From NCBI GenBank assembly GCA_016722945.1, contig JAEQMT010000038.1, forward strand, positions 744,001 to 808,000: a DNA stretch of 64,000 nt, given 5' to 3'. Position numbers and translations under genes: made by a program. Below, piece after piece: positions 12,402 through 56,113 of this stretch. Below the pieces are notes generated by a model, which saw only the letters and a list, made by a program, of their open reading frames with translations, ran no database searches and was not told the origin of the DNA. The stretch's first letter is position 1; each line of letters begins with the position of its first letter. Origin of the DNA: Desulfofustis sp. PB-SRB1. GTDB lineage: Bacteria; Desulfobacterota; Desulfobulbia; Desulfobulbales; Desulfocapsaceae.

Positions 12402-14105
12402 TCAGGATGAACAGCTATAGTGCGACACCCCACCGGCATTAAAAAACTCTCTGGGTCTAAGACGATAGTATTTTTCTTCTCTCTCTTGTGATTGCTCGTC
12501 ATAGGGATCGTTCAATACTTCCTGCAACTCCCTGACCAGGTTGTAGTCACCCTCCATGGCCCGCTCGTAGGCGGGGACGATCAGCCACTCCCGCCATGCG
12601 TATTTGGGGTTTATCCGTTTCATCTTTGCTGATATCTCAGTCACATCGCCCTCTTTGCCGACCGCGGCGCGCCAGCTGTCGAGCCACGCCTGCCACTCAT
12701 CACCCAGTTGTGGGGTGGGAGCCTGGTAGAAGCTTTTTTGCAGAGCCGAGGTGTGCTCTGGAACATGAGATAGCTCACGGAAAAAAATCGTGTAATCCAC
12801 CTCTGAGCGTTCCAACAACTGCAATAATTGTGTGGTGAGTCCCTGGTCATAGTGGCGCAGGCCAAGCTTGGTCATCCACATGTTTTGCAGCTCGTTTTGC
12901 ATTGCGTCCGCAAAGCCTTGGCGGACCCGGTCAAAAGCCTTCAACGCTTCAGGGTCTTCGGCCAGAAGCGGTCGTACCGCGGTCCAGAACATATGGTAAT
13001 TGGCCTCCGCGGCAACTGGTTGATTGAAGAATGAAAAATGTGTACCGCCGCCCGTCCACGGTTGAAAACGGGGGTCAAACATTTCGCAGAAGCCAAAGGG
13101 GCCATAGTCCAGGGTAAAGCCGCCGGCCGCGCAGTTGTCGCTATTAAAATTGCCCTGGCAGTATCCAACCCGCAGCCAGTTGGCCACCAGCGAGGTAAGA
13201 CGCCGGCGAAAAAGCCGTGCCAGCTCAACCAGTTGCTCGGCAAAAGCAAGGCGCTGATCGATGTCGCCGTGGTACTCCCGCGCAATCAAATGCGCAACAA
13301 TCATGTGCAGCTCTTGTAATGCTTTGGGATGCGCGGTGGTACGGGCACGACGGGCAAATAATTCCAGTTGGCCGACGCGTAGAAAAGATGGGGCGACCCG
13401 GGTTGCAATCGCCACCGGATTGTCCACCATGATATCAGGATCGGCTGTCTGGCAATTCTCTGCATACCAGGGCCGGGCAACACTCTCAGAGCGGGACACG
13501 TAGAGCGTCAAGGAGCGCGAGGTCGGCACCCCCAGGGCATGCATATACTCCTGGGCGAGAAATTCCCGCACGCTTGAGCGCAGCACCGCGCGGCCGTCAG
13601 CACCTCGGCAATAGGGCGTTGCGCCGCCGCCCTTTAACTGCATTTCCCAGCGCTGCTGGTTAACGATTCCCTCAAAGACCGAGATCGCCCGACCATCGCC
13701 ATAGCCGTTACCGGTGCCAAAGGGACACTGGTGGGTATATTCGGTGCCGTAAATAGATAGAGCGTAGCCGGTCGCCCAGCCGACCTGGCGCATAGGCGCG
13801 GTTGCGGCCGAGAGATCACCGGAAAACAGTCGGATAAACCGTGCATCATGGGCGAGTTCGTCGCTCAGCCCAAGTTCGTGAAAAAAGACCCTGCTGTGGC
13901 TGACATATTCCGGTTCCGGCAGCGGTGTGGGTGCCACCGGTACGAAATGACCGGAAAAAACCTGCCGGGCGCGGTGGTCATCACCATCTTCGGTACCATC
14001 CGGGTCGACATTCAGACTATCCATCAGGGAGTAATCAGCTAGCCCCACAAACTCATCAAAGCTTGTTACCAGGGGCCAACCATCTAGTTTGGGTGCGGTA
14101 GACAT
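12402..14105 (-). CDS. SelO/YdiU-family protein AMPylase, divergent paralogue
   Basis: A 567-residue pseudokinase-fold protein of the SelO (YdiU, UPF0061) family, which transfers AMP to protein hydroxyls. Visible markers are LQ-type [20 protein letters not shown] (ATP-binding lysine and activation region), [15 protein letters not shown] (catalytic Asn-Asp segment, NSDN where most bacteria have NTDN) and [10 protein letters not shown] (metal-binding Asp). It ends SHYSCSS, keeping the C-terminal Cys where animals use selenocysteine. It is convergent with the dioxygenase gene. A second, more typical SelO gene lies at 35.0-36.7 kb. The two are different clades rather than a tandem duplicate. Confidence 0.85.
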
Positions 14106-14270
14106 TGTTATACATACCTCGAGAAGGGTGCTAGCATCCGCATTACTGATCAGCGGTTGTCAGCTTTCCACTTGGTTGCAAAATTTTCCAGGAATCAACC
14201 TCTTACGCAATGAAGCTCGATAGGCTTCTCCCTTCTAATTTTAGTGGTTTTTTACCAGAAATAAACCCAT

Positions 14271-14430
14271 GATGGTTTCGTAAAAACCCCAATTACGGGC
14301 ATTGTGGAGATGAACCGAAATCCATAGTCATTCCAAATTACTGGATTCCCGCTGCAGCCTGCCCTTGAGTGTTGTTATCGAGGGCGGGAATGACGTTAGC
14401 AAGCAAATTCAAGGTTTTTACGTGTTCATC
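14271..14430 (+). repeat. 160-bp MITE-like repeat, family 1, copy A
   Basis: Ends are GATGGTTTCGTAAAAACC and GGTTTTTACGTGTTCATC, an imperfect 18-bp terminal inverted repeat. The core is GGATTCCCGCTGCAGCCTGC, then CCTTGAGTGTTGTTATCG and AGGGCGGGAATGACG. It shares its whole length with copies at 32352-32511 and, inverted, at 42885-43044. A 7-bp direct repeat AACCCAT lies immediately outside both ends, the expected target-site duplication. There is no coding capacity. Confidence 0.8.
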
Positions 14431-14526
14431 AACCCATGGGCAACATTTGCGGAGGATCGCCATCGAACCACTGCAACAATCTTGATTCTTAGATGAACGG
14501 GTACTGCGTTTTTCCTGATCATCGCC

Positions 14527-14663: not shown

Positions 14664-15857
14664 ATGCGCTACCGTATTCTTTTTGCAGCGGTGCTCATGC
14701 AGGCCTGCCTGGGCGCCACCTATTCCTGGTCGGTGTATGTACAGCCATTGCGAAAACTCGCGGACATCGCCCAAGGGCCGGCCCAGATTCCCTTTACGCT
14801 GTTCTACTTTGCCTTCCCCCTTACCATGATGATCGCCGGGCAATTTCTGCCAAGGATCGGTCCACGAAGATCCGCCGTGTTGGGGGGATTTCTTTTTGGC
14901 GGCGGCTGGCTGCTGGCCGGGATGGGCAACCACTCCTTCCTCCTGACGATTATTGGCATCGGAGCAATTGCTGGGATTGGTGCTGGAATGGCCTATATCG
15001 TGCCAATTGCCGTCTGTGTTCGTTGGTTCCCCGACTCCAAGGGGTTGGTCACCGGTATTGCGGTGGCCGGCTTTGGCGGTGGCGCTGCCATAGTCAGCCA
15101 GGTCGGTGGCTATCTCATCAACACCATGGGGCTCAGCCCCTTTACTACCTTTACCGTCTTTGGGATTATTTTCTTGATATTGGTTACTTCCGCGGGTTCA
15201 GTGATGCGATTCCCGGAGGATCAGTTGACCACAACCCCGAAAGAGCGTTTGAGGGCCTCCCAGATCTTCTCCCATGTCAATTTCAGGATTCTCTACTTCG
15301 CCATGTTCCTGGGCCTTGCGGCCGGTTTTGCGATTAATGCCAACCTCAAGGAACTCTATCAGGGGACCGGCAATGAGGTGAGTCTTGGCATAACCGCGGT
15401 ATCACTTTTTGCCCTGGCCAATGCTGCCGGCAGGGTCATCTGGGGGACTGTTTTCGACCGCCTTCAATCAGCCACCGCGATTCAGGCCAATCTCATGCTT
15501 CAGGCCGCCATCCTGGCCCTTGCCCCCTTTCTCTTACATCTGCAATGGGGTTTTTTGGCTGTTGCCATGATCACCGGCTTCAACTACGGAGGAGTACTGG
15601 TGCTCTATGTCTCCTCGGCCACCAGGAGCTGGGGAGCAGCCAATATTTCCCAGGTATACGGCTGGCTCTTCACCAGCAATATCCCGGCTTCGGTCTCTCC
15701 CATCCTGGCCGGCTTTATCTACGATAGATTTACCCATTTTACCCCGGCTCTCCTGGTACTCTCCGGTTTCCTGGTATGCGGCACCCTGCTGGTACGCACC
15801 AGATCAACGGTGCTTAACCAGGTGATACGTAGTAAGAAGCGTGCCGCACAAATATAG
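14664..15857 (+). CDS. MFS transporter, oxalate/formate antiporter (OFA) family
   Basis: A 397-residue protein with 12 predicted membrane spans. The N-terminal MRYRILFAAVLMQACLGATY and WSVYVQPL, and the FPLTMMIAGQFLPRIGPR loop (MFS motif A region), are typical of the OFA group. AIAGIGAGMAYIVPIAVCVRW is the family's conserved fourth and fifth span region. Family members carry oxalate/formate, lactate or other small carboxylates. The substrate here is not determined. The gene stands alone, with no frc/oxc-type genes nearby. Confidence 0.8.
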   Translation: MRYRILFAAVLMQACLGATYSWSVYVQPLRKLADIAQGPAQIPFTLFYFAFPLTMMIAGQFLPRIGPRRSAVLGGFLFGGGWLLAGMGNHSFLLTIIGIGAIAGIGAGMAYIVPIAVCVRWFPDSKGLVTGIAVAGFGGGAAIVSQVGGYLINTMGLSPFTTFTVFGIIFLILVTSAGSVMRFPEDQLTTTPKERLRASQIFSHVNFRILYFAMFLGLAAGFAINANLKELYQGTGNEVSLGITAVSLFALANAAGRVIWGTVFDRLQSATAIQANLMLQAAILALAPFLLHLQWGFLAVAMITGFNYGGVLVLYVSSATRSWGAANISQVYGWLFTSNIPASVSPILAGFIYDRFTHFTPALLVLSGFLVCGTLLVRTRSTVLNQVIRSKKRAAQI

Positions 15858-16893: not shown

Positions 16894-16911
16894 AAAAGAA
16901 GTTATTTCTAC

Positions 16912-16995
16912 CTTCTGCCTTCTGCCTTCTGATTTCTGATTTCTGATTTCTGATTTCTGATTTCTGACTTCTGACTTCTGACTTCTGACTTCCGC
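16912..16995. repeat. Heptanucleotide tandem repeat, 12 units
   Basis: Twelve consecutive 7-bp units: CTTCTGC (2), CTTCTGA, TTTCTGA (5), CTTCTGA (3) and a final degenerate CTTCCGC. The array ends exactly at the base before the stop codon of the CBS-domain gene (16996), so it lies in that gene's immediate 3' untranslated region. Such an array should be length-variable by slippage. Confidence 0.92.
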
Positions 16996-17442
16996 CTAAG
17001 CCGGATACTTCCCCTCCAGATAGTCCTTTAGATAGTGGATTTCCACATGTTTGTCCTTGAGCTGCGCTTTAACCACGTCGCCCAGGGAGACAAGGCCGGC
17101 CAATTTGCCGCTCTCGATGATGGGAATATGGCGGATCCGGTGCTCGGTCATGATGCTCATCAAATTATCCACCGTTTCTTCGGGGTCGGCGGCAATCACT
17201 TCGCGGGTCATGACATCGCCCACCGATAGCGCGGCGATGGTGGTGGGGTTTTCGTGCAGCGCCTTGAGCACATCGTTGGGGGCGACAATGCCCTCGATAA
17301 CGTTATAGTTGTCGACCACCACCAGTGAACCGATGCGGTTAGCAAAAAAAAGCGACAACACATCGATGAGCCTGCTCTCTTCGGGGACGGTGACGACGCG
17401 GGTACCCTTTGCCGCCAGAATGTCTTTAGCTCTCATACTCAC
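16996..17442 (-). CDS. CBS-domain protein
   Basis: A 148-residue stand-alone Bateman module made of two CBS motifs: VPEESRLIDVLSLFFANRIG with SLVVVDNYNVIEGIVAPNDV, then DVMTREVIAADPEETVDNLM with IRHIPIIESGKLAGLVSLGD. Such pairs bind adenine nucleotides and regulate partner proteins. It follows nuoN by only 14 bp on the same strand, so it is probably co-transcribed with complex I, hinting at an energy-sensing role (inference). ATG at 17442 or 17436. Confidence 0.85.
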   Translation of the reverse strand: MSMRAKDILAAKGTRVVTVPEESRLIDVLSLFFANRIGSLVVVDNYNVIEGIVAPNDVLKALHENPTTIAALSVGDVMTREVIAADPEETVDNLMSIMTEHRIRHIPIIESGKLAGLVSLGDVVKAQLKDKHVEIHYLKDYLEGKYPA

Positions 17443-31094: not shown

Positions 31095-31227
31095 GATGAA
31101 TTCGTAATAACCTCAAAACTGCTTGCTGCCGCCATTCCCGCGAAAGCGGGAATCCAGTGATTTCATATAATTATGAATGTCACGTCAATTCCGGTATGAC
31201 GGGAATATGGGTTTTTATGACACCATC
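31095..31227. repeat. 133-bp MITE-like repeat, family 1, short-core variant
   Basis: The ends GATGAATTCGTAATAACC and GGTTTTTATGACACCATC match the terminal inverted repeat of the 160-bp elements. The core is reduced to CCATTCCCGCGAAAGCGGG followed by AATCCAGTGATTTC, replacing the CTCGATAACAACACTC-type insert. Its right end is fused to the broken parE gene, so it probably truncated that gene. Confidence 0.65.
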
Positions 31228-32351: not shown

Positions 32352-32511
32352 GATTGAATCGTAAAAACCTCTATCACCGCCATGGTGGAGCTGACCCGAA
32401 ATCCATAATCACTTGAAATTACTGGATTCCCGCTGCAGCCTGCCCTTGAGTGTTGTTATCGAGGGCGGGAATGACGATATCAAGCAATTTTGGGGTTTTT
32501 ACCAGTGCATC
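32352..32511 (+). repeat. 160-bp MITE-like repeat, family 1, copy B
   Basis: Exactly the same length as copies A and C. It has ends GATTGAATCGTAAAAACC and GGTTTTTACCAGTGCATC and the same core (TACTGGATTCCCGCTGCAGC, CGAGGGCGGGAATGACG). Its right end stops three bases before the stop codon of ltaE. Clear target duplications are not visible around this copy. Confidence 0.8.
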
Positions 32512-32514
32512 AAT

Positions 32515-33543
32515 TCAAGACCCGGATAGATGGATAAAAAAGTGGTGCATGGCCTCGACGGTGCGCTCCACTGCCGACCGGTCGATATCAAGGTGGGTGA
32601 CGAGCCTGATGCGGGTGCCGGAGGGGATGAGTATGGATTGCTCGGCAAGAAAGGATGATAGGCCGGCTTCCGCCTTATCAGGCACCGTAATGAATACCAT
32701 ATTTGTCTGGGCTTCGTCATAGTCGACCTGGACGGATTCAATTAAGCGCAGCCCGTCGGCCAGCCGGGCGGCGTTGTCATGATCTTCCTGGAGTCGTTCG
32801 ACGTGATGAGTCAGGGCATGGATACCGGCGGCGGCGATGATGCCCGCCTGACGCATGCCGCCCCCCACCATCTTGCGCCAGCGCCGGGCCGTCTCGATGG
32901 TTGGTTTGTCACCACACAGCAGTGATCCCACCGGCGCCCCCAGCCCCTTGGAAAGGCAGCACGATACCGTGTCAAAGGCGGTGCACAACCGGCTTACATC
33001 GACGCCGTGTTTGATTGCCGCATTGAAGATACGGGCCCCGTCCAGGTGCAGCCGAAGGTTGTGGCGGGCGCCAAAGGCGGCCAGTTGATCAATATAGTCA
33101 AGAGGTAGAGCGAGCCCGTAGTGGGTATTTTCCAGGCAGAGCAGCCGGGTTCTGGCAAAATGAAAATCATCCTGCTTGATGGTTGCCGCCACCTTGTCCA
33201 GATCAAGGGTGCCGTCGGGTTCAAAGTCCAGGGGCTGGGGCTGAATGGAGCCCAGTACGGCGCCGCCGCCGGCCTCGTACTTATAGGTGTGGGCATGCTG
33301 GCCGGCGATGTATTCATCGCCCCGCTCACAATGGCTGAGCAGGGCCAGCAGGTTAGCCTGGGTGCCGCTGGGGGTGAACAGCGCCGCCTCTTTGCCCAGC
33401 AGCCGGGCGCCCAGTTCCTGAAGTTCATTGACGGTGGGGTCATCGCCATAGACGTCGTCGCCCACCACGGCGGAAGCCATAGCCTCACGCATGGCCGGGG
33501 TCGGTTTGGTCACCGTGTCGCTGCGCAGATCAATAGTGTGCAT
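32515..33543 (-). CDS. ltaE: Low-specificity L-threonine aldolase
   Basis: A 342-residue PLP enzyme of the threonine aldolase family. It starts [20 protein letters not shown] and has [52 protein letters not shown] (PLP-binding Asp) and [14 protein letters not shown] (Schiff-base lysine). It cleaves L-threonine or L-allo-threonine to glycine and acetaldehyde. The CDF gene upstream ends 3 bases before it on the same strand. Confidence 0.92.
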
Positions 33544-42849: not shown

Positions 42850-42884
42850 GACGAGGTGCGTTTATACAATAGAAACATATCCAT

Positions 42885-43044
42885 GATGGACTCGTGAAAA
42901 CTTTGAATTTGCTTGCTAACGTCATTCCCGCCCTCGATAACAACACTCAAGGGCAGGCTGCAGCGGGAATCCAGTAATCTCGAATCATTATGGATTTCGG
43001 GTCAACTCCACAATCAGCGTAATTGGGGTTTTTACGACTTCATC
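42885..43044 (-). repeat. 160-bp MITE-like repeat, family 1, copy C
   Basis: Inverted relative to copies A and B, the same 160-bp length and over most of its length the same sequence. Ends are GATGGACTCGTGAAAACT and GGTTTTTACGACTTCATC. ATCCAT flanks both sides as a possible target duplication. It lies directly beside a second element with the same ends (43051-43205). Confidence 0.8.
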
Positions 43045-43050
43045 ATCCAT

Positions 43051-43205
43051 GACGAACTCGTAAAAACTCAGTCTAGCAGTTTAAGATGGCTAAGTAATAA
43101 GTCTACGGAGTGGTGGTCGTTTTGACCTCGCAGTCGTACATATAGTACGTCGAGAAGTCAAAACGATCCCACGACGACGTAGAGCGAAGTTTTTACGACG
43201 CCATC
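43051..43205. repeat. 155-bp element sharing family-1 ends but with a different core
   Basis: The ends GACGAACTCGTAAAAACT and AGTTTTTACGACGCCATC match the family-1 terminal repeats. The interior differs: a long imperfect hairpin of GTCGTTTTGACCTCGCAGTC and GTCGAGAAGTCAAAACGATC around TACATATAGTA. It sits six bases from copy C. The rest of the gap up to phnW at 43372 shows no gene. Confidence 0.65.
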
Positions 43206-43371: not shown

Positions 43372-44490
43372 ATGACCACGCCGCCGTTTGACCAGATGCC
43401 CGATAATCCCTACCTCCTGCTCACTCCCGGCCCGCTTTCCACCAGCAAGGGCGTCAAACGCGTGATGCTGCGCGACTGGTGCACCTGGGACGACGATTAC
43501 AACGCAATTGTCGAAACTATCCGGGCCCGCCTGCTTACCATCGCCAACGCCCCCGAGGGGTATACCAGCGTGCTCATGCAGGGCAGCGGCACCTTCAGCG
43601 TCGAATCGGTAATCACCACGGCGGTGGCACCGGGCGACAGGCTTTTAGTGCTGGCAAACGGCGCCTATGGATTGCGGATTGCCGAGATCGCCCGACGCAT
43701 CGGCATCGACTTCACCGTCCTGGACAGCGGAGAACTGGCCCAGCCCGGTCTCAATGAACTGGCCGCAACCCTCGCCGATGATCCCGCCATCACCCATGTG
43801 GCGGTGGTGCACTGTGAGACCACCACCGGCATGCTCAATCCCATCGAGGAAATCGGGGCGGTGGTGAAAGAACACGGCAGGATCTACATCGTCGACGCCA
43901 TGAGCAGCTTCGGCGGCGTCCCCATCGATATGGCAACACTTGGCGCGGATTTTCTTATCAGCAGCGCCAACAAGTGCATTCAGGGGGTACCCGGCTTCGG
44001 CTTTGTCATTGCCCGGCGCGCAATTCTTGCCTCACTGGCCGGTACCGCCCGCTCCTTGAGTCTGGATCTGCATGCCCAGTGGCAGACCATGGAAGAGCAC
44101 CATGGCAAGTGGCGTTTCACCTCACCCACCCATACGGTGCGCGCCTTTGCCCAGGCCCTGGCCGAATTTGAGGAAGAGGGCGGGGTAGCGGCACGGCATC
44201 AGCGGTACCGGGAAAATCATCGTATCCTCATAGAAGGTATGGAACGCCTCGGCTTTGTCTGCCTGCTGAACCCGTCGGTTCGCTCGCCGATTATCACCGC
44301 GTTTTACAATCCGCCCCACCCTGATTATGACTTTAGGCGCTTTTACGAAGCCCTGAAAACACGGGGCTATGTCATCTACCCGGGCAAGGTAAGCGAGCAC
44401 TCCACCTTCCGCATCGGCACCATCGGCCACGTCTTTCCCCGTGATATCGAGGCGCTGGTAGAGGCGGTTGAACAATCTAGGGAACCTTGA
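43372..44490 (+). CDS. phnW: 2-aminoethylphosphonate--pyruvate transaminase
   Basis: A 372-residue PLP aminotransferase: [75 protein letters not shown] and [17 protein letters not shown] (Schiff-base lysine). It converts 2-aminoethylphosphonate and pyruvate to phosphonoacetaldehyde and alanine. Its last two codons and stop (CCT TGA) come from the left end of a MITE that starts at 44480, so the native C-terminus has been replaced by a few residues. phnX follows. Confidence 0.93.
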
Positions 44491-44620
44491 AAAATGAGAA
44501 TTTTCTTTCAAGATCGAGGCGCGAGAAAAATTTTGCCGCAGGCATATGATCGATATTCCGAGGATAAAATTTTTTGAGCAACACTGAGATTGGACGAAAA
44601 GGCCATTTTGCAAGGTTCCC
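44480..44620 (+). repeat. 141-bp MITE-like element, family 2, complete copy
   Basis: It begins GGGAACCTTGAAAAATG and ends CATTTTGCAAGGTTCCC, a 17-bp inverted repeat with one mismatch. The interior (GAGAATTTTCTTTCAAGATC, GCCGCAGGCATATGATCG, ATTCCGAGGATAAAATTTTT) recurs at 55972-56113 and, cut short, at 45896-45986. It fills almost the whole phnW-phnX spacer and supplies the phnW stop codon. Confidence 0.85.
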
Positions 44621-45895: not shown

Positions 45896-45986
45896 GGGAG
45901 CCTTGAAAAATGAGAATTTTCGTTCAAGATCAAGGCGCGAGGAAAATTTTACCGCAGGCATATGACAGATATTCCGAGGATAAAAT
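45896..45986 (+). repeat. Family-2 MITE, left part only
   Basis: GGGAGCCTTGAAAAATG through ATTCCGAGGATAAAAT matches the first 90 bases of the copies at 44480 and 55972. It then breaks off directly into integron-integrase coding sequence. The missing right end and the missing N-terminal part of the integrase point to one deletion with its endpoint inside the element. Confidence 0.8.
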
Positions 45987-46258
45987 CGCATACCTTCCGG
46001 CACAGCTTCGCCACCCATCTTTTGCAGGCACAGTACGACATACGCACGATACAGACCATGCTGGGCCACCCCGATATACGAACGACGATGATCTATACCC
46101 ACTGTATACCCAGTAAAACAGCGAAAGAGGCGAAAAGCCCCATGGATTTTGAACCAGCCCAACAACAAGAATCATTACTTGGCACGTTAATTGCGATATC
46201 GATAACCCCACAATTTGCGAATTATCTGGACGCAATCCGTTCAGATAAGTACTTGTAA
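45962..46258 (+). pseudogene. intI: Integron integrase IntI, C-terminal fragment
   Basis: The frame reads [40 protein letters not shown] and AKSPMDF. It has the tyrosine-recombinase box II (HxxR, the LLGH-type His and the YTH nucleophile Tyr). The ending of the form R/KSPxDx after the Tyr is typical of integron integrases. Only about 60 of some 320 residues remain. The upstream ATG and first residues come from a MITE, and the first arginine, the IntI-specific insertion and the N-terminal domain are gone. It is transcribed toward the cassettes, unlike class 1-3 integrons. Residues after PMDF read into unrelated sequence. Confidence 0.8.
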
Positions 46259-49857: not shown

Positions 49858-50546
49858 CCGGGTAGTGGATGGTTACCCATAGATCTTTAAGGCAAAGCAA
49901 CCCTTGACCCCTGAGCCATTGATTGGTCATGCCCGATTGGGTGGCCACTGTGCGGGATAATCTCCATGAACCTGTGCGGCTCAAACCGACGGAGATAGCT
50001 ATGCGCAGGAATGTGCCGAGCCTGGTCAGCTCACGAACTTTGGTACGTCGGTAACGCCACTGTTTCCAGGAGCACATGTGTATCCCGCGGCGCAGCCACT
50101 GGTCGATTTCGGGTATGGGACGATAGAGTTCCGATATCCCGTAATATCCCATCCAGCCGCGTAGATACTCTGCCAGTTTGAACAATCGATACGCCATGGA
50201 GACGCCCCAGCTCCGTCCGGTCAATTCCTTGATGCGCTGTTTGAAGCGTATAAAGGCGTTATTCGACCAGCGGATTTTGGTGCCCGAGAAGGCAAAACCG
50301 AGAAAGGTGATCTCGTTGGTATGAGCCACCTTGCTTTTCTCCTGGTTGACGGTGAGCTTGAGTTTCTTCTCCAGGAACCTTCTGTCCGTCAGCCCATAAG
50401 GTTGTACGCAAGCTTCCTCCAGACGAGCCCTCGCGGGATCGCCCTTGCTTTCGACCAGTATTTATGTTCCTGTCATCACGACAGTAACTGGGTTTAAATA
50501 CAGGGGACTTGCACCCCATAAGATCACGCCCATGCCGGGCGTACAC
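49767..50546 (-). mobile_element. Group II intron, internally deleted, antisense to cassettes (copy 1)
   Basis: Read on the minus strand it starts near GTGTACGCCCGGCATGGGCG, with the typical GGGGTGCAAGTCCCC and GAGGAAGC pieces of domain I (about 50546-50400). It then jumps to the C-terminal part of the intron reverse transcriptase and ends with the domain V/VI region GAACCGCCTAGTGCGGACCC and GGGGGAGGGATTCCCCCGGC. About 780 bp remain of the usual near-2-kb element. The 3' end and the RT resemble group IIC-attC introns. Most of the RT gene has been deleted. Confidence 0.75.
49844..50384 (-). pseudogene. Group II intron reverse transcriptase/maturase, C-terminal fragment
   Basis: The fragment reads RRFLEKKLKLTVNQEKSKVA, HTNEITFLGFAFSGTKIRWS, RIKELTGRSWGVSMAYRLFK, LAEYLRGWMGYYGISELYRP, IDQWLRRGIHMCSWKQWRYR and GMTNQWLRGQGLLCLKDLWV. 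These are the thumb/domain X of a group II intron maturase. The seven RT motifs including the YADD box are absent, so neither splicing help nor mobility is possible from this copy. The plausible internal ATG is at 50329. Confidence 0.8.
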
Positions 50547-52219: not shown

Positions 52220-52958
52220 AATCGGGTAGCCGGGGGAATCTCTCCCCCAGCCCCCACACCACCTGGTGATCAGCGACGATTATAATTGCCTGGTACCGAC
52301 AATGAATATTTAACGCTTTAAATGGTGCTCGGCGTAATTCCGGGGACGTAATATTTATCTTCCCACTTTACCGTAAGATTTACGGAGCCACGGTCTGCTG
52401 ACAGCGCTTTTATCCTGGTTGACCTTACGCTTCAATTTCAGCCTCAGGAAATCAGTGATGCTCCACTTCACTCTCTCGGCTGCTTACTGGCTTTTGCAAG
52501 AAATCATGAAATTCGTCCGCGCAGCGGACGAACTTTTGCCCTCTGCTTTCCAATTTCTTATCCAACTCGTCAAGGACGATGTTGGACAGCAGCGGAGAAA
52601 GAGGTCCACCCCGGGGAGTTCCCAGGTGGCACAGGGGAGATCTCCCGGGGTAAACACATCTCTTTCTGTACGTGAGTGCCGGGTTTACGGATACGCCATA
52701 TAATAGATAGAGGACGTTATCTTGTTGTGCGGACTCGTCCCGACGTATGCGCCTTATAACCGATTCCTGTTCGTCACCTTGTACGTTCGCGGTACACGAA
52801 TTTCCAAGCGGCTTCCTCCCGAAGCATTGTCGCCACTACCTCGTTGCTCAACGCTACACCCTTTGCCTCCATCTGGCTGGGTTTAAGACTTGCCAAGTAA
52901 CTGACCTTATTTTACACTTGACTAACTTTTAAGAACATGTGCCGTGCCCGGCCCACAC
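52220..52958 (-). mobile_element. Group II intron, internally deleted, antisense to cassettes (copy 2)
   Basis: On the minus strand the candidate 5' end is GTGTGGGCCGGGCACGGC (52958). It is followed by domain-I-like pieces AAAGGGTGTAGCGTTGAGC, GGGAGGAAGCCG, GACGAACAGGAATCGG, TTATAAGGC and CACAACAAGATAACG. Next come reverse transcriptase fragments (52346-52660) and the 3' end CACCAGGTGGTGTGGGGGCT and CCCCCGGCTACCCGAT, which matches copy 1. The domain V proximal strand and most of the RT are missing. The 3' exon is the end of the DUF1254 gene. Confidence 0.7.
52346..52660 (-). pseudogene. Group II intron reverse transcriptase, central fragment
   Basis: One frame gives GTPRGGPLSPLLSNIVLDEL, DKKLESRGQKFVRCADEFHD; a second, after a frameshift at about 52480, gives AAERVKWSITDFLRLKLKRK, VNQDKSAVSRPWLRKSYG and a stop. 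The GGPLSPLLSNI motif is RT domain 4. The catalytic YADD of domain 5 reads CADE, so the active site is lost. Clearly dead. Confidence 0.8.
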
Positions 52959-55971: not shown

Positions 55972-56113
55972 GGGAGCTTTGAAAAATGAGAATTTTCGTT
56001 CAAGATCAAGGCGTGAGGAAAATTTTGCCGCAGGCATATGTCTGATATTCCGAGGATAAAATTTTTCAGAGCAACGATGAGATTGGGCGAAAAGGCCATT
56101 TTGCAAAGTTCCC
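55972..56113 (+). repeat. 142-bp MITE-like element, family 2, complete copy
   Basis: GGGAGCTTTGAAAAATG ... CATTTTGCAAAGTTCCC, with the same interior as the copy at 44480-44620. AAAT lies just outside both ends as a possible target duplication. Confidence 0.85.

Follow-up and report, generated by a model that had tools for sequence, protein, structure and literature searches.

The 160-bp repeats of Desulfofustis sp. PB-SRB1 are copies of a miniature non-coding transposon (MITE) that is present in dozens of copies in the genome, three of them in the window, the 64,000-nucleotide stretch of DNA analyzed here. It is very likely that these MITEs, with their GATGNNNTCGTAAAAACC-type ends, have been moved by a 614-aa IS1182-like DDE transposase into TN[AWNNWT]NA, where the brackets enclose the 6-bp target that is duplicated. 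We observed directly that the ends of the MITE match those of an IS present in the same genome, and determined the duplication length, the target consensus and the copy number; from these comparisons, the transposase of the resident IS probably acts on the MITEs. Mobility in trans by an unseen transposase had been proposed in the initial annotation, and we infer that this is the best reading of the fixed ends, the 6-bp duplications, the target consensus and the like-ended IS.

Copies of the element in the window and across the order

The three window copies are each 160 bp long and are located where they were originally described, at 14271-14430 (+), 32352-32511 (+) and, inverted, at 42885-43044 (-). 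They are 84-90% alike in pairwise comparison, and their complete ends follow the pattern GATGNNNTCGTAAAAACC...GGTTTTTACGANNNCATC with variation, the left end being GATGNNNTCGTAAAAACC and the right end closing with ...CATC. The copy at 14271-14430, which contains a long dRS3-like core, has a SelO-like gene (12402-14105, -) on one side and an MFS gene (14664-15857, +) on the other; no ORF of 100 aa or more runs across it, and the AACCCAT direct repeat previously noted on both of its sides is present at 14264-14270 and 14431-14437. The copy at 32352-32511, where an exact duplication is absent, stops 3 bp short of a beta-eliminating-lyase gene (32515-33543, -), on the side of its stop codon. The inverted copy has ATCCAT on its left (42879-42884) and again at 43045-43050, between it and a 155-bp element (43051-43205) that has like ends, a different interior and a CGTAC..GTACG apex (class B). 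A copy of a 133-bp sub-family with the short core ATTCCC-N8-GGGAAT is found at 31095-31227 (-), without an exact 6-bp duplication. No ORF of 100 aa or more lies over the 160-, 133- or 155-bp window copies, which are short (<500 bp) elements without a transposase gene, and GATGNNNTCGTAAAAACC-type ends are present on both sides, in agreement with their description as non-coding with inverted ends.

Other repeats and structured sequences are also found in the window. Repeats of about 141 bp, bounded by the inverted ends GGGAACCTTG...CAAGGTTCCC, form a further family at 44480-44620, 45896-45990 and 55972-56113; its members are 87-91% alike over their matched parts and are perhaps a different MITE. 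Group II intron D1-D4-3 matches are located at 52654-52839 (98 bits) and 50326-50440 on the minus strand (35.5 bits), and a tandem array of TTTCTG/CTTCTG-type units with 14-bp spacing at 16904-17001.

The genome assembly (4.69 Mb, 71 contigs, 97.6% complete, 3.8% contamination) contains 402 occurrences of the end pattern GATGNNNTCGTAAAAAC with at most one mismatch, 210 of them exact, against a single occurrence of the reversed pattern used as a control. A BLAST search with the window 160-mer found at least 43 places on many contigs (40 of 220 first-look candidates scored), so the possibility that there are no further copies is refuted. Pattern searches located 86 long cores of the 160-bp form (up to 3 mismatches) and 83 exact short cores of the 133-bp form. 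The constant length that had been claimed therefore holds within one sub-family but not for the whole, as 133-bp copies share the arms and are similarly frequent. The claim of recent mobility holds up for mobility but fits poorly as to its recency: among the 42 other places scored by BLAST, 39 are 86-93% identical to the window copy, and three weaker ones are 71-81% identical. An ORF proxy on contig C1 (ORFs of at least 120 aa) would hold 86.5% of random 160-mers, yet only two of the 39 elements there lie mainly within it and the other 37 mostly outside.

Of the 257 genomes of the order, 191 contain exact ends, in many cases just one to three, with a maximum of 397; by hand count, 54 genomes have at least 20. 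A full-length 160-bp element was not found in the 256 other genomes, for which at most the best three candidates per genome were scored, and no description of this MITE family was found in the open-licence literature. Within the reach of these searches the family is a new one, of an ordinary kind. The review PMC10969869 on prokaryotic MITEs, in its account of the Chunjie MITE of Geobacter uraniireducens, gives a size of 178-235 bp, with 38 copies having TIR and DR and 57 partial copies; compared by description only, the present element is likewise a mostly intergenic, multi-copy MITE with size variants. MITEs of 160 and 169 bp, in 14 and seven copies, are listed in PMC3852290 for Methanosarcina acetivorans with the IS1182-family partner ISMac2, in rows ending 26/4 and 25/0 that we take to be IR and DR sizes. 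The small size, and a partner that is IS1182-family there and IS1182-like here, are similar; the 6-bp duplication, the 17-18-bp ends and the 169 cores in one genome differ from those entries.

Target duplications, arrays and sister elements

End pairs 60-250 bp apart were sought in the first 800,000 positions of C1 and in the window (864 kb in all), which gave 44 pairs, including one spurious nested pair (174 bp) kept in the count. Exact 6-bp duplications flank 18 pairs and exact 7-bp duplications flank three, where 0.56 and 0.02 would be expected from the flanks of different elements. Overall, 21 of 44 pairs have an exact 6-7 bp duplication (0.58 expected), and 23 have none. Duplications are thus not confined to the first window copy, contrary to the outcome that the initial annotation had named as a refutation.

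A sister family in a second genome of the same family, G014, provides a larger sample. Fifty-five pairs were read in 48 fetched stretches, and three of unusual length (87, 131 and 220 bp) were kept. Forty-eight pairs are 162 bp long, and 47 of these show 0-6 differences from the most frequent copy, the remaining row being in the opposite orientation. Duplications of 6 bp (36 pairs), 7 bp (10) or 5 bp (1) flank 47 of the 55. The G014 elements are a young burst, unlike the family of the Desulfofustis genome.

Empty sites rebuilt from the exact 6-bp cases gave the target-site consensus whose determination had been suggested, TN[AWNNWT]NA, in both genomes. In G014 (n = 37) there is a T at -2 in 27 sites, an A at the first position of the target in 34, a T at its last position in 36 and an A at +2 in 22; the corresponding numbers for the Desulfofustis genome (n = 18) are 12, 16, 18 and 10. 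The flank preference is drawn from G014, because in six of the 18 Desulfofustis sites the T or A next to the target comes from the end of a neighboring array element; the G014 sites have these bases without such neighbors.

In arrays in C1 and the window, five neighboring elements are exactly 6 bp apart, and the sole other gap below 30 bp between ends facing outward is 28 bp. Three elements at C1:38970-39367 have the spacer ATAAAT in common, and in the window array (42885-43205) the ATCCAT spacer recurs at the opposite end of the 160-bp copy. We suggest that each insertion rebuilds the preferred flanks, since two bases ahead of the target CATC supplies a T, and two bases beyond it GATG supplies an A; the junction CATC|target|GATG at an inserted end would thereby recreate a preferred site, and arrays would form.

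A candidate partner IS and its transposase

A search for a transposon with matching ends, which had been proposed as a check, found an IS of 1931 bp in three copies in the Desulfofustis genome, each with an open 614-aa DDE transposase ORF. Two copies are on C1, as end pairs 1931 bp apart that enclose the ORF, and the third is on contig C6; the three transposases are 97-100% identical. Two copies have the ends GATGAAGTCGTAAAAAG / GATGAGCTCGTAAAAAC, and in the third the left end varies. AATTAT, a 6-bp duplication, is present on both sides of the C6 copy, and the other two copies have no exact duplication. The transposase exhibits Pfam matches above cut-off to DUF772 (PF05598), DDE_Tnp_1_6 (PF13751) and DDE_Tnp_1 (PF01609). 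The best NCBIfam match is IS1182 (NF033551, equivalog), with 135.5 bits against a cut-off of 270, and for this reason we call it IS1182-like rather than a member of the family, with which it has the DUF772 and DDE_Tnp domains in common. The account in PMC5678879 reports that IS1272, of the IS1182 family, replaces stem-loops, whereas the present clade duplicates 6 bp.

The transposase or a relative was found at E ≤ 1e-30 in 18 of the 257 genomes, the Desulfofustis genome included. The 27 relatives' loci read include several fragments or contig-end cases; both ends are present in 14 of them, 1.88-1.96 kb apart and with at most three mismatches each, and 10 of these 14, from six genomes, have a duplication of 6-7 bp with A as its first and T as its last base. 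Judging by these loci, end type and target rule are both maintained in the IS clade among proteins 50-65% identical, so the end and target specificity is stable across the clade. Two of the IS copies read (L212 1240-3339 and L200 1223-3314) each lie between two 100-101-bp elements with like ends, each joint being a 6-bp spacer, an arrangement that resembles a composite transposon built from MITEs.

According to the proposed mechanism, the 614-aa transposase would recognize the GATGNNNTCGTAAAAACC-type ends of the MITE and insert the element at TN[AWNNWT]NA, duplicating 6 bp. At least 20 exact ends are present in 10 of the 18 genomes having the IS, versus 44 of the 239 without it (Fisher p 0.0009, from counts taken by hand on related genomes that are not independent). 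The 17-18-bp ends are all that the MITE and the resident IS have in common; an origin of the MITE as an internal deletion of that IS was rejected, as subterminal sequence is not shared.

An unlikely alternative is that these MITEs owe their movement to another transposase of the same end type, whether different, diverged or extinct, and that the resident IS is no more than a relative. The lack of common subterminal sequence fits this reading, and so does G014, where about 50 near-identical copies are accompanied by no match to the 614-aa transposase among the best five candidates scored, and where no pair of element ends surrounds the other IS1182-like loci read. No IS of this kind was found at E ≤ 1e-30 in 44 of the 54 genomes with at least 20 exact ends; IS loss, incomplete assemblies or another transposase could account for this, and because of these genomes and G014 another or a lost transposase may drive the family. 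G141, G145 and G242, with 397, 266 and 196 exact ends, have no IS of the clade at that threshold. Other IS1182-like transposases were rejected as partners: of 36 matches in five genomes, 30 loci were read, and only the resident IS has a pair of ends within two mismatches around it, single end matches occurring beside some of the others. Against a different mover, all three IS copies of the Desulfofustis genome itself keep the 614-aa frame open and have ends that match, one of them with the 6-bp duplication, and relatives at 50-65% identity retain both the ends and the duplication type. Mobilization by the resident IS transposase thus remains our preferred explanation for this genome.

Palindromic cores and hairpins inside the elements

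The 133- and 160-bp forms have both arms in common and differ in the core, which is ATTCCCGCTTTCGCGGGAAT in the former and 27 bp longer in the latter. The short core ATTCCC-N8-GGGAAT fits the consensus of the neisserial dRS3 repeat, ATTCCCgcCTgcgcGGGAAT, as given in PMC3046118, and the longer core does not; in addition, unlike the neisserial repeat as described there, the core here lies inside a MITE. The core is the most conserved part of the element: mean column identity in the 133-bp class is 99.3% for the core, 84.4% for the other interior and 91.3% for the ends, and in the 160-bp class 94.1%, 84.3% and 86.8%, respectively (16 rows each). Selection, recent homogenization or recent origin may be the source of this conservation.

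Among the 257 genomes, the short core is found in 60, the Desulfofustis genome included, and the long core only in that genome and in G081 (two matches). Two inverted core units per element are present in some genomes, as judged by eye. On one G081 contig (C97; L222/L233), short and long cores occur without visible ends, judged by eye from the flanks; several dRS3-like palindromes lie within 2 kb on this contig.

The Desulfofustis copies include every one of the eight possible combinations of left arm, core length and right arm, each of which comes in two types (57 of 76 typable, one combination being a single copy), and the parts have therefore reassorted. On a tree of the arms, core state changes 14 times in 76 copies, compared with 19-28 times in 200 label shuffles; the tree used about 105 bases per copy and dropped one copy with a core of middle length and copies without full flanks. 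Core length is thus partly inherited and partly swapped. We infer that the palindromic core would be a captured dRS3-like repeat that reassorts between copies by recombination.

Such a conserved palindrome (99.3% against 84.4% for the rest of the interior in the 133-bp class) could also point to REP/BIME-type repeats whose ATTCCCGC...GCGGGAAT palindrome would be the substrate for mobilization by a Y1 (RAYT-type) transposase, and both the seven Y1_Tnp matches in the Desulfofustis genome and G097, which has 75 short cores and no exact ends, are in keeping with that. Yet all 35 core units in C1:1-800000 are inside like-ended elements (33 two-ended, two one-ended), the 6-bp duplications sit at the outer ends of the elements, and among 26 Y1_Tnp loci in six genomes a full core was found close to two, one of them in the Desulfofustis genome, and to none of the other 24. 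A RAYT origin of the core was rejected on the basis of those 24 loci, and we give this explanation almost no credence.

The long predicted hairpins and the position of nearly all C1 elements (37 of 39) outside the ORF proxy might instead indicate a structured regulatory RNA or terminator kept for function, not mobility, a reading that we regard as highly improbable. At the Rfam gathering score no family matched at the elements, the only window matches being the two to group II introns. RNAalifold found the palindromes of the 160- and 133-bp classes (16 rows each) with little compensatory change, covariation terms being about -1.0 and -0.3, and an RNA function of these two classes was rejected. 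Target duplications at unrelated sites, moreover, show transposition.

The 155/162-bp class speaks more in favor of a retained structure, as its hairpin arms change between lineages and stay self-complementary. The 155-bp class represented in the window at 43051-43205 is also found in G014, G001, G006 and G022 (loci L102-L118), and the hairpin apex CGTAC..GTACG is conserved. Arm complementarity within copies has genome means of 18-33, against a mean of 11.2 and a maximum of 20 for shuffled arms, although the lowest single within-copy scores, 18, fall inside the shuffled range; the samples are small, with 6, 15, 1, 4 and 1 distinct copies and none from the one G140 locus. Between genomes the arms mostly behave like shuffled ones (means 6-13), the exception being G022 to G001, with 19. 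Because G022 left arms resemble those of G006 and G001, arm exchange is to be placed between the Desulfofustis genome, G014 and the G022/G006/G001 group. As far as the sequences go, the pattern suggests a retained hairpin with exchanged arms, and the hairpin arms of this class may have independent origins.

The proposed mobilization by an IS1182-like transposase pairs a very abundant non-coding repeat with a candidate enzyme and an exact target rule, which makes cross-mobilization testable. The modular core is a lead on the recurrence of ATTCCCGC-type palindromes in different repeat contexts. A broader joint reading, which we offer tentatively and consider possible rather than probable, is an order-wide system in which fixed ends and a 6-bp target rule are combined with a modular payload of captured, swapped and constrained palindromic cores, either dRS3-like units or CGTAC..GTACG hairpins in which replaced arms remain complementary. 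If this is true, the palindrome would be a working part of the element, for example a DNA hairpin or a host-factor site for mobilization, and not filler.
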